Shown: positions 12,488 through 16,305 of the stretch, in pieces
How positions within the stretch are numbered: position 1 is the stretch's first letter
How the letters are laid out: the number at the start of each line of letters is the position of its first letter
NCBI GenBank assembly: GCA_026014815.1
Contig: JAOZHP010000076.1
Coordinates: 1-64,000 of the forward strand
Direction of reading: 5' to 3'
Length of the DNA: 64,000 nucleotides
DNA from: Candidatus Bathyarchaeota archaeon
Lineage (GTDB): Archaea > Thermoproteota > Bathyarchaeia > TCS64
Made by a program: the position numbers and the translations under genes
Notes under the pieces: model-generated
The model's input: the letters and a program-made list of their open reading frames with translations, nothing else
What the model was told of the DNA's origin: nothing
Databases searched by the model: none

Positions 12488-13012
12488 TTACATACCGATG
12501 CCGGGGGTTCTATACCTTTTTTCCCACTCTTCCTTCATGACAATATTTCGTAGATCGGTGAGATGGTCGGTGCACATGACCCCGTGGAGGTGGTCGATCT
12601 CGTGCTGCAGGAGCTCACTCATGTCGTCGCTGAACTCCTCTATGTGCTTCCCGCCGTCCTCGTCCTTGTACTCGACCTTTATCGCTTTGTTTCGGCTAAT
12701 CTTGACGAAGAACGCGGCGTTCAAGCTGAAGCAGCTATCCCAGACCATGAAAGTCTCGGGGCTCCTCCAAATGATGGCTGGGTTAACAAGGTAAAAGCTT
12801 CTTTCAGGCATCTGTATGTAGACCACTTTCTTAGGGTACCCGATCTGGGGCGCCGCCATGCCTCTGCCCATACCTTGCTCCTTCTGGATATGTGTTAACG
12901 TGTCCTTGAGGTCTTCAAGGATAAGTGCAAGTTCATCACTAAAGTTCACTACTCCATGGGCTTCCTCCCTTAGCCGCGGGTCACCTAACAGAACAGTATC
13001 CCGTATAGTCAT
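12488..13012 (-). CDS. Peptide deformylase-family metalloprotease
   Basis: This 174-residue protein carries all three deformylase motifs: GMAAPQIG (motif 1, GxGxAAxQ-like, preceded by GMGR), SCFSLN (motif 2, with the metal-binding Cys) and LLQHEIDHLHG (motif 3, HExxH-type). Motif 2 differs from the bacterial EGCLS by reading DSCFS. Archaea start translation with unformylated Met, so the usual role does not apply; a different N-acyl or formyl substrate is likely. The gene lies about 100 bases downstream of the pup-like ORF, with a T-run between them, and probably has its own promoter. Confidence 0.88.
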   Translation of the reverse strand: MTIRDTVLLGDPRLREEAHGVVNFSDELALILEDLKDTLTHIQKEQGMGRGMAAPQIGYPKKVVYIQMPERSFYLVNPAIIWRSPETFMVWDSCFSLNAAFFVKISRNKAIKVEYKDEDGGKHIEEFSDDMSELLQHEIDHLHGVMCTDHLTDLRNIVMKEEWEKRYRTPGIGM

Positions 13013-13115: not shown

Positions 13116-13235
13116 TTACTGCCCTGGTGGTGCTACGACTTCCTTATGCTCTTTCTTTATGATGATTTTTCCTCGCTTCAGCTTCCTTTTCTTAAAGCTG
13201 GGGAAGAGGTTCTCGTCTTTCTTCTCTGTCATCAT
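13116..13235 (-). CDS. Candidate Pup-like small protein modifier (39 aa, ends in GQ)
   Basis: This ORF begins two bases after the stop of the second Dop/PafA-like gene and encodes 39 residues. The first residues are MMTEKKDENLFPSFKKRK and the last are HKEVVAPPGQ, ending exactly at the Gln. Bacterial Pup is a small disordered protein ending in Gly-Gly-Gln or Gly-Gly-Glu, and in Actinobacteria pup directly follows dop, so both position and C-terminus fit. Differences are a shorter length, a Pro-Pro-Gly-Gln tail, and a strongly basic composition (ten Lys, two Arg, five acidic residues), whereas Pup is acidic. Tandem ATG codons are present (13235, 13232), with GAGTGA just upstream. A chance short ORF cannot be excluded. 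It should be considered a candidate substrate of the two upstream enzymes. Confidence 0.55.
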   Translation of the reverse strand: MMTEKKDENLFPSFKKRKLKRGKIIIKKEHKEVVAPPGQ

Positions 13236-13237
13236 TT

Positions 13238-14815
13238 TCACTCTGTGTCATGTTTCTCGTGGTCGTCGCTGGGGGCGTACATCATGTGATCCCCCCTCTG
13301 GTTAAGCTTGTCGAGGGCCTTGGTGAACTCTGTGAAGGTGCCTGTCGCCTTCTCGAGGACATCCCCGCACATCTGTTTGTTGAAGATGAAAGGCTCATCC
13401 AGACGGATCGATGCGTTGTGAAAGTTGATGCTCTCCCACTCGATGGACTTGAGCAAGCCCGGGAACTCTCGTGCAGCGAGGCAACGGATGTACTCCCGTG
13501 TCCCCTCTGGGCCGTTATGTAACGCATGCTTCACCTTCCCCGTCAGAGCGTCCCAGTTCTCGAAGGGAATCGCGTCTCTCGCGAACTCCATGGAGTCATC
13601 GAGGCTGAACGTGGTTTCGTCCACTTCAACTGTTTCACCTATGTACCTGAGAACGGTCTCATCCAACAAGGTGTACTGGTTGCAGATGCCTAACCCTTCC
13701 TCGATGTCACCCTCAGCGTACTCGTCTATGAGCGTCTTCTTAGTGACCCAGTCCAGTCCGTCGATGAAGTACTCAAGGCTGCGCTCCTGAAGTCTCTGCA
13801 CCGTGGCCTTGATGAGGTTGAAAGACCGTCTGTCCGCCTCGGTTGATTCTTCTCTGCTTAACATCTCCTCGACGCCTGCTAGGTAAAAGCCTTCGAGGAT
13901 GTCTGCAACTGCGTCTACTCTTGTCCCATCCGCAAGGGTTAGCTTCCAGTTGAGAGCCTCAGTGTCGGTGGTCATCTCCTTCATGGAGGCAACAGGGTCA
14001 TCCAGCTTGGGTGCGTCTTGATAGTAACCTTTCTCGTAAGCAGTCATAACGAGGGTTTCAAGGTTATCCCTCAGGTAGATCTGGAAAGGGCTTCTGAGTC
14101 CTTCCCAGTTGATGTCGTGGAATCTCCAGTACTTCTCGGGGTCTGCGTGGGGGTCGTTCCTCTGGTTGAGGATGCCCCTAGCGTCCACGGTGTCGTTGCT
14201 TGAGACTCTTTTGATGAAGGCTGCACGTGGGCTGATTACGAAGCGAAGTGTTTCACCGTTCATTATCTTTCCGGGTCGGGGCAGCGAGCCGTCCCTCTTG
14301 CAGGGCACATAGTCGCCGCCACCGATTACGGGTATCCGTGCCACCATGAATGGGACTAAGGCGTCCTCCATCTTGTCCCAGACATCTGGACCACACACAC
14401 GTCGATCCATAAGGATGCTGCTGTGAGTGCTGTAGCTGTTTGCCCTCCAACCATCGCCTTCCTTGATGTTGGAGACGTTGTTCTTGTACCCGTTTATACC
14501 CTTGAAGTAGCTCCTGAGGCCCTTCACGGCGTAGTAGCCGAACAGCTCGGCGACCCTGTCGTAGATGACGGCCTCCATGCTACTGTTGTAGCTGGGGCTT
14601 GAGAGTTCTAGGTGGCTCATGTCGTCGTAGACCCTGAATCCGTTGTAGGCCATATAGTCCAGTCGGGGCTCCTCGACCTTGATCCCAGTGACAAGCTCTG
14701 CCTTCCTAAGCTCCTCGATAGCCATTCCTACTAGGTGTATCAGTGACCTATGGGGTAGCTGGGGCTGTGTGTTCATGGCTAGCTCGTGCTCGACTCCACG
14801 TATCTTGTGTTCCAT
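13238..14815 (-). CDS. Dop/PafA-family protein with intact catalytic Asp
   Basis: This protein of about 525 residues aligns along its length with actinobacterial Dop (Pup deamidase/depupylase) and PafA (Pup ligase), carboxylate-amine ligase-like enzymes. From the ATG chosen, the ATP/Mg motif is IRGVEHELAM (residues 5-14, G-x-E-x-E). The segment NGFRVYDDMSHLE (58-70) aligns without gaps to NGARLYVDHAHPE of Dop, keeping the catalytic Asp as Asp65. KNNV (111-114), the weakened STHSSILM (Dop GSHENYLM) and RNDPHAD (219-225, Dop RDEPHAD) follow. The C-terminal LDWVTKKTLIDEY and GTREYIR segments match the family's C-terminal domain. The ATG at 14815 is favoured because it puts the G-x-E-x-E motif at the family's usual place; TTG at 14851 is the alternative. 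It is followed directly by the pup-like ORF. Confidence 0.9.
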   Translation of the reverse strand: MEHKIRGVEHELAMNTQPQLPHRSLIHLVGMAIEELRKAELVTGIKVEEPRLDYMAYNGFRVYDDMSHLELSSPSYNSSMEAVIYDRVAELFGYYAVKGLRSYFKGINGYKNNVSNIKEGDGWRANSYSTHSSILMDRRVCGPDVWDKMEDALVPFMVARIPVIGGGDYVPCKRDGSLPRPGKIMNGETLRFVISPRAAFIKRVSSNDTVDARGILNQRNDPHADPEKYWRFHDINWEGLRSPFQIYLRDNLETLVMTAYEKGYYQDAPKLDDPVASMKEMTTDTEALNWKLTLADGTRVDAVADILEGFYLAGVEEMLSREESTEADRRSFNLIKATVQRLQERSLEYFIDGLDWVTKKTLIDEYAEGDIEEGLGICNQYTLLDETVLRYIGETVEVDETTFSLDDSMEFARDAIPFENWDALTGKVKHALHNGPEGTREYIRCLAAREFPGLLKSIEWESINFHNASIRLDEPFIFNKQMCGDVLEKATGTFTEFTKALDKLNQRGDHMMYAPSDDHEKHDTE

Positions 14816-14888
14816 CAAACCATGTGCCTCGAAAACAAGTCGCAATGCCAACTCTTGGGCAGGATACTCTATAATATTTGCTACAAGT

Positions 14889-16232
14889 TCAGCGGCTTGA
14901 GTCTATTAAGGATTGAATCTCAGCCGTTTTCGCCTTGATCTTTTTATTTGTCCATCCACCAAGCTCGTTGAACTCGAAAGGGTAGTAGTTTATCTCGGGT
15001 TTCAGCTTGATGTAGCTCCAGCTCATGGTCTTCAACTCGTCCTTGAACCGTTTGGCGAGAGCGACTCTTAGTGTTCCCCTGCTCTCACAGGGTGGGTCCA
15101 TGAACGCCTTCTTGACGTTCTCTTCCGAGATTATGGTTCTCAGTCCGTGGCTCTCCACAAGTTCATCGTACAGCGGGTCAGTGACCGCTGTATACTGGTA
15201 CATCGCTGCCTCTTTCGCTGCATCCATGCTTAGACCCTCCTCCACGATGTACTCGTCCAGCACTTTCTCTGTGAGCCTCATCTTGATGACCCACTCGATG
15301 GATGTGTCCAAGGATTCAATCAATCCCTCATCGAGCTTCCCGAGAACCCACTTGAACTCACGAAGAGCCATCAGGTCGTGATCCGCAGGGCTTCCATCAG
15401 CGAAGACACGTTCAATCGCCTCAAGATAATGGGAGTTGAGGTAATCAATGACCCTTATCTCAGCGCCCTCCTTCAAAGGGACAGTCCAGTCTCCGTCGAG
15501 GCTCAGTGAGATCGCTTTGTTGGACTCGATTGGAGCCTCTATCTCGGGCACCGATGTGAGGTGTCCTTGCTCGATTGCCCTGAGGATATAGCTGGTGATG
15601 CTGTGCTTCAGGAACGTTGTTACCTCAGAACGGGCTCCCTCCCCATTCACGATGTGGGCGCGACTGAAAACGTCGTCTGTGTGGGACTCGTCACGTGTGC
15701 TGATAATCGGGTAATCGGTGCTGGTCTCCGAGTACAGGGTCTTGGGGAAAATTGTTCGAGGAGAGACGAGGTATCTCCCGTTCACGTATCCACCTGCACC
15801 GCAGAAGACCTGCCTCAAAACGAGGTAAGGTATGAGAAGATGAATGTTCTCAACGTACTTTTCCCGTTTGACGAGGTAGTTCTCGTGGCTCCCAACGGTC
15901 GTGTAGGGTACCTCTCCTTTGGGGTCAGTGGCTATGTTGGTCTTGTAGAGGTGGACTTGTTCACCTGTGTCTTCTTGGTAGGTCCATGAGGCTAGTCGGG
16001 CGTACGCCTCACACGCTTTTTCATAAGCCAACATCTCCAAGGGGTTCCTACACTCGGGGGTGCAGACCTCGAAGAGGTTGCCGTGGATGTAGCAGAGGCC
16101 ACCGTTTCTGAGAAAAGCCCGTGGGATGCCGTCGTCTGGCTTGAAGACGTAGACCCCTCGTTTGCCGAGGGCCTCAAAGAGCCCCATGGGCCATGAACCT
16201 GCGGCGAACTCTTGTTCTGCTCCCTGCCACAT
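14889..16232 (-). CDS. Dop/PafA-family protein with His at the catalytic Asp position
   Basis: This is a second member of the Pup deamidase/ligase family (447 residues from the ATG). Motifs from the ATG: QGAEQEF (G-x-E-x-E, 3-9), RNGGLCYIHGNLFEVCTPEC (42-61), VGSHENYLV (113-121, nearly identical to Dop/PafA), STRDESHTD (178-186), RAHIVNGEGARSEVTTFLK (191-209) and IEWVIKMRL in the C-terminal half. The ungapped alignment with Dop NGARLYVDHAHPEYSAPEC puts His50 where the catalytic Asp should be, although the nearby Glu and TPEC are kept. It may use altered chemistry, be a pseudoenzyme, or work as a heterodimer with the downstream paralogue. TTG at 16244 is an alternative start. It leads the operon; AAAAATTATTTA near 16280 could be its TATA box. 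Confidence 0.9.
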   Translation of the reverse strand: MWQGAEQEFAAGSWPMGLFEALGKRGVYVFKPDDGIPRAFLRNGGLCYIHGNLFEVCTPECRNPLEMLAYEKACEAYARLASWTYQEDTGEQVHLYKTNIATDPKGEVPYTTVGSHENYLVKREKYVENIHLLIPYLVLRQVFCGAGGYVNGRYLVSPRTIFPKTLYSETSTDYPIISTRDESHTDDVFSRAHIVNGEGARSEVTTFLKHSITSYILRAIEQGHLTSVPEIEAPIESNKAISLSLDGDWTVPLKEGAEIRVIDYLNSHYLEAIERVFADGSPADHDLMALREFKWVLGKLDEGLIESLDTSIEWVIKMRLTEKVLDEYIVEEGLSMDAAKEAAMYQYTAVTDPLYDELVESHGLRTIISEENVKKAFMDPPCESRGTLRVALAKRFKDELKTMSWSYIKLKPEINYYPFEFNELGGWTNKKIKAKTAEIQSLIDSSR

Positions 16233-16305
16233 ATTTAGAGACAAGTAATCCCGTGAATGGGTGTCTGAGGCTGTAAATAATTTTTGATCAAGCCCTTGGA
16301 AGCCG

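Follow-up and report, generated by a model that had tools for sequence, protein, structure and literature searches.

A short basic gene beside two Pup ligase family genes in Bathyarchaeia probably encodes the tag of an archaeal pupylation-like system

Proteasomes are present in all archaea, and the choice of their substrates is, in many of these organisms, a question on which a protein tag system bears. UBact, a bacterial system, combines a small modifier ending in G[EQ] with PafA-type enzymes. Pupylation itself is treated in the literature that we found as a bacterial and largely actinobacterial system; the published C-terminal signature of Pup is G[EQ] (PMC2588565), and Pup ends in GGQ or GGE according to the species (PMC3511204). 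Sporadic Pup systems outside the actinobacteria, in Nitrospirae, Planctomycetes, and Verrucomicrobia, likewise have G[EQ]-ended modifiers and PafA-type enzymes (PMC2588565, PMC7947786). A search of the open full-text literature, with subscription papers and preprints outside its scope, yielded no paper that describes Pup or pupylation from an archaeon, and the ANME comparative-genomics paper that was checked makes no mention of pupylation.

We analyzed a stretch of 64,000 nt of bathyarchaeal DNA (the window) in which two genes of the Pup ligase family, here called LigA and LigB, are followed by a very short open reading frame, the candidate tag gene. The features are as follows.

14889 to 16244, minus strand: LigA, 451 aa, Pup_ligase PF03136 (3.2e-69).
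16083 to 16085, minus strand: His54 of LigA, occupying the position of the catalytic Asp.
13238 to 14851, minus strand: LigB, 537 aa, Pup_ligase PF03136 (4.6e-48).
14621 to 14623, minus strand: Asp77 of LigB, equivalent of the catalytic Asp94 of Dop and Asp64 of PafA, invariant in LigB.
13238 to 13241, minus strand: GTGA, in which the LigB stop overlaps the possible GTG start of the tag by 4 nt.
13116 to 13241, minus strand: putative Pup-like modifier gene, 41 aa from GTG 13241, net charge +7.
13191 to 13202, minus strand: PSFK motif of the tag, invariant in the alignment.
13146 to 13157, minus strand: KKEH motif of the tag, invariant in the alignment.
13119 to 13130, minus strand: C-terminal Pro-Pro-Gly-Gln of the tag, ending in Gln in the source genus; the sister genus and Methanomethylicia have Glu instead.

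Read from ATG 13235, the tag frame (13116 to 13235, minus strand) translates to MMTEKKDENLFPSFKKRKLKRGKIIIKKEHKEVVAPPGQ. A recount reproduced the composition given in a preliminary description of this DNA: 10 Lys, 2 Arg, and five acidic residues (1 Asp and 4 Glu) in 39 codons, with a Pro-Pro-Gly-Gln tail. Three starts are available, GTG 13241 (41 aa), ATG 13235 (39 aa), and ATG 13232 (38 aa), and the sequences suggest that the true one is either ATG 13232, which the homologues favor, or GTG 13241. If the GTG is used, the GTGA overlap could couple translation of the tag to that of LigB; overlaps of 4 nt between LigB and the tag are also present at four other loci (L005, L009, L034, and L035). 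In the window, the tag is followed after about 100 nt by a peptide deformylase gene (PF01327, 3.1e-35; 12488 to 13012, minus strand), which does not adjoin the tag in the other loci looked at.

A frame this short could be a chance ORF that happens to follow LigB: it has no family match, and the window is rich in short ORFs of similar charge (48 of 361). Its conservation leaves this explanation almost no credibility. Homologues lie directly 3' of LigB in 13 genomes, 5 of Bathyarchaeia and 8 of Methanomethylicia, and the order LigA-LigB-tag recurs in two genera of Bathyarchaeia and in Methanomethylicia. These homologues are 31 to 41 aa long and follow the pattern PSFK...KKEH...APPG[E/Q]; 13 columns of their alignment are invariant, namely, the start Met, PSFK, KKEH, and APPG. 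The preliminary description had named an absence of purifying selection as what would refute a gene here, and selection on the frame proved strong. Six independent pairs gave 25 nonsynonymous and 57 synonymous differences (omega of 0.077), and when the same base changes were placed at random, the nonsynonymous count was at least 47 in all 2,000 draws (0/2000 as low as observed). When 257 genomes of the class were searched with a profile of the tag, it was found at the expected place in the five genomes that have both the ligases and an intact locus end, together with one further weak match that contains a stop. The tag thus co-occurs with the ligases, being present in 5 of 6 ligase-bearing genomes and in 0 of 251 others (Fisher p of ~7e-10); the sixth (G010, CP070784) has a gap of N residues inside LigB, where the tag would come next. 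Selection, the same position in 13 genomes of two classes, and the specificity of the profile together rule out a chance ORF. No sequence match between the tag and Pup was found in Pfam, NCBIfam, or PDB.

LigA and LigB are the sole PF03136 members in the source genome (3.09 Mb). Both match the family profile, and the GS-type fold is seen in the AlphaFold model of LigA (pLDDT of 85.8), for which Foldseek gave TM scores of 0.84 to the Dop-Pup complex and 0.80 to PafA-Pup; the predicted LigB structure, from a shallow alignment, reached a pLDDT of 42. Residues were compared with those of Acidothermus Dop, for which roles have been assigned (PMC8599861, PMC2588565). The GhExE motif and the Mg/ATP residues are kept in both window paralogues. 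In LigB of all lineages, GhExE, R90, Y92, the catalytic Asp94, E99, H155, R227, and H241 (Dop numbering) are all kept, and LigB mixes the Dop spacing after the Asp with a PafA-like Ser-Ser in the alpha-loop. In LigA, the catalytic Asp is His in Bathyarchaeia, Cys in ANME-1, and Asp in Methanomethylicia, where LigA has a 7-residue insert after this Asp and Gln at H241, a residue tolerated at that position in the Pup ligase/Dop family. To judge from the alignment, active-site residues of LigA are lost or rewired, and its catalytic role is uncertain where the catalytic Asp is gone.

Neither enzyme could be assigned to PafA or Dop. NCBIfam equivalog cutoffs for PafA and Dop were reached by neither LigA nor LigB; the closest NCBIfam model for LigB is Dop, with a score below its cutoff, and the family models place LigB nearer to Dop and ANME-1 LigA nearer to PafA. 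In a maximum-likelihood tree whose bacterial sample was actinobacterial plus one Tectomicrobia locus, and in which long branches are a caveat, the actinobacterial PafA and Dop sequences grouped in one clade (100/100), with LigA and LigB of archaea in two others. Equating LigA with PafA and LigB with Dop, or the reverse, was rejected by AU tests (p of 3.6e-6 for LigA plus PafA and 1.3e-5 for LigA plus Dop). At this actinobacterial sampling, LigA and LigB are orthologues of neither PafA nor Dop (AU p of about 1e-5).

G[EQ] closes each of the 13 tags from Bathyarchaeia and Methanomethylicia and each of the 17 distinct ANME-1 tails; the latter read YAT[SA]GE except for one YATSGQ. The alternation of Gln and Glu after an invariant Gly occurs in Bathyarchaeia and, independently, in ANME-1. 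The preliminary description had remarked on the lack of Gly-Gly before the Gln; this is correct as an observation, yet it is not unusual, since the Pup signature is G[EQ] (PMC2588565), and it is no objection to a conjugated tag, since a constant Gly before either Glu or Gln is what would be required by an enzyme that activates the side-chain carboxylate of the last residue and works alongside a deamidase. The same invariant end bears on another explanation, that the peptide is a small regulatory protein, a pseudo-substrate or inhibitor that controls the ligase pair and is never conjugated. Its possible translational coupling to LigB, its short and basic character, and the partly degenerate active site of LigA would all suit such a regulator; a Gly-Glu/Gln end with Q/E alternation is needed by a conjugated tag and not by a regulator, and we regard this explanation as quite improbable.

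The basic character that the preliminary description had singled out recurs in the relatives. Tags from Bathyarchaeia carry a net +5 to +7 and those from Methanomethylicia a net +2; ANME-1 tags, taken whole, are acidic, with +4 to +6 over their last 31 residues. All 13 copies from Bathyarchaeia and Methanomethylicia are thus basic, as is the C-terminal half of every ANME-1 copy. Over the last 31 residues, archaeal tags range from +2 to +8, against -10 and -5 for two actinobacterial Pups, whose whole-protein charges are -13 (Nonomuraea) and -10. A basic part in the region predicted to bind the enzymes is a trait common to the archaeal tags examined. It had also been proposed that this charge complements a differently charged groove. 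The Bathyarchaeia enzymes are indeed very acidic (LigB, -28 to -36), but so are most proteins of the window (median of -3.3 per 100 residues), which makes this a weak argument.

Relatives in the genome collection came from "Candidatus Bathyarchaeota," six Methanomethylicota (Verstraetearchaeota), four Methanophagales (ANME-1), and one Tectomicrobia bacterium. The ligase system is patchy in Bathyarchaeia, where 6 of the 257 genomes in the class have it; a sample of the phylum revealed a second family, one of small genomes, with the system, in 8 genomes that all belong to that family, and in the ANME-1 order the PF03136 ligase family is present in 52 of 53 genomes. Contamination is unlikely, since one Bathyarchaeota copy sits in a single-contig 2.3-Mb chromosome (CP070784). 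In one Methanomethylicia genome (G380; L026/L037), LigA and LigB-tag are on separate contigs and a different gene follows LigA, either because the operon is split or because the assembly breaks there. The Tectomicrobia contig (JACPSX010000109; L040/L073) encodes two enzymes that group within the LigA and LigB clades of archaea; its tag gene was not found, and the contig ends just upstream of LigA. A viral origin was also considered and set aside, as no relative was found in viral contigs and the single "phage" match, MT835496, was discounted. That GenBank "Bacteriophage sp." scaffold (MT835496.1; L113) carries Mpa-like, Dop, and PupQ (GGQ) genes and is probably a mislabeled actinobacterial contig.

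The near-universal presence of the ligase family in the ANME-1 order, with an operon conserved among the loci read, outweighs the locus of the window as a finding. A gene for an AAA-ATPase of ~543 aa lies directly upstream of LigA-LigB in all four ANME-1 operons read (L065, L066, L067, and L068), and the tag follows LigB on the same contig in three of them; in L068, no tag is listed between LigB and the contig end. The AAA domain of this ATPase matches PAN, Cdc48, and Mpa/ARC models, below every cutoff. ANME-1 tags are 81 to 111 aa long and have an acidic N-terminal half, a probable coiled-coil helix, and a basic C-terminal half that ends in ...YAT[SA]G[E/Q]; the acidic half fits what would be expected of an unfolding handle. 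Some ANME-1 genomes (L041, L042, L043, and L044) have, away from the operon, a third, solitary LigA-like paralogue with Cys for the Asp, and no tag gene was seen beside it. Bathyarchaeia and Methanomethylicia have tags without the acidic half and loci without the ATPase gene; no ATPase or protease gene was found beside these loci, and the source genome carries 20S proteasome genes.

The lack of an adjacent ATPase or protease gene in Bathyarchaeia and Methanomethylicia would also fit a peptide of the RiPP type, that is, a substrate or scaffold whose C-terminal Glu is extended or modified by the GS-fold enzymes to yield a small molecule. The peptide is very short, its PSFK and KKEH motifs are highly conserved, and the carboxylate-amine ligase fold makes small molecules too (GCS/YbdK relatives). 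Against this, no conserved transporter, peptidase, or tailoring gene lies beside the tag, LigB keeps the Dop/PafA residues, and the fold of LigA is closest to the Pup enzymes; furthermore, the homologous ANME-1 operon has an AAA-ATPase and a Pup-sized tag, and a pair of enzymes fits conjugation and removal. We consider a RiPP-like role unlikely.

Our preferred reading, which we hold to be quite likely, is that the product of the ORF is conjugated to proteins as the tag of a pupylation-like system of archaea, made up of LigA, LigB, and the tag. This system is best read as a pupylation branch of its own, with a tag that is miniature and basic. The preliminary description had left a choice between a new branch of Pup-like modifiers and a spurious ORF; selection, the conserved charge, and the separate enzyme clades favor the branch. 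The C-terminal Gln of the tag (Glu in relatives) would be bound in the GS-fold active site and, where it is Gln, deamidated; the terminal side-chain carboxylate would then be phosphorylated and the tag joined to lysines of target proteins. LigB most likely performs the hydrolytic steps, deamidation of Gln-ended tags and tag removal, since it is the one paralogue in which the catalytic set, the Asp included, is complete, has Dop as its best family model, and adjoins the tag gene. LigA would be the likely ligase, forming the isopeptide bond with a substituted base; alternatively, LigA could be a diverged partner, with LigB doing both reactions. Of Pup, the tag would retain hardly more than the C-terminal part that binds the enzymes, and its basic charge would be a property of the archaeal branch. 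As to the fate of the targets, tagged proteins in ANME-1 are probably unfolded by the ATPase of the operon and then degraded, which would couple tagging to the proteasome. It is conceivable, as speculation, that the short tag of Bathyarchaeia and Methanomethylicia is a reversible mark or acts with Cdc48-type ATPases.

More tentatively, and with considerable doubt, we suggest an ancient archaeal pupylation branch, with ANME-1 at its core and a patchy presence elsewhere, in which the enzyme pair arose by a duplication independent of that of PafA/Dop. The tag of Bathyarchaeia and Methanomethylicia would have shrunk to a basic peptide of 31 to 41 residues, too short to act any longer as an unfolding handle of the Pup type and serving as a reversible, nondegradative mark, attached by a ligase with a substituted catalytic base. 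A Pup-like operon across nearly the whole ANME-1 order bears on the origin of the pairing of Pup with the proteasome, and a minimal tag of 31 residues bears on the lower size limit of conjugated protein tags. What separates ligase from hydrolase activity in this fold can be tested directly on LigA, in which the Asp is naturally replaced by His or Cys.

Among known systems, the closest is actinobacterial Pup-PafA-Dop (Mycobacterium, Corynebacterium), which shares with the window a small G[EQ]-ended tag gene adjoining a Dop-type gene, two PF03136 paralogues, the ATP/Mg residues, and a proteasome in the cell. Actinobacterial control loci show the same adjacency, Dop then Pup, as in LigB-tag, and the ANME-1 order ATPase-LigA-LigB-tag recalls the ATPase, Dop, and Pup of one such locus. 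Actinobacterial Pup is 60 to 70 aa long, acidic (-13 in Nonomuraea), and ends in GG[EQ], whereas the Bathyarchaeia and Methanomethylicia tag is 31 to 41 aa long, basic (+2 to +7), and ends in PPG[EQ]; the archaeal enzymes fall in clades separate from PafA/Dop, LigA of Bathyarchaeia lacks the catalytic Asp, and the host is archaeal. Like Pup, the archaeal tags end in G[EQ] and are encoded next to a PafA/Dop-family gene. Their length here, 31 to 41 aa, departs from the published 50 to 90 aa (ANME-1 tags have 81 to 111 aa), their C-terminal binding region is not acidic, and sequence homology to Pup is not detectable; on account of length, charge, and homology, we place the tag as a variant of pupylation and not as Pup itself. 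The sporadic bacterial Pup systems differ in their hosts and in tags of 50 to 90 aa, with a single Tectomicrobia locus in the tree. The ANME-1 operon differs from the window in its tag of 81 to 111 aa with an acidic N-terminal half, its upstream AAA-ATPase, and the Cys in place of the Asp in LigA, and it shares orthologous LigA and LigB in the same order, a basic C-terminal part of the tag, and a G[EQ] end with one Q form.
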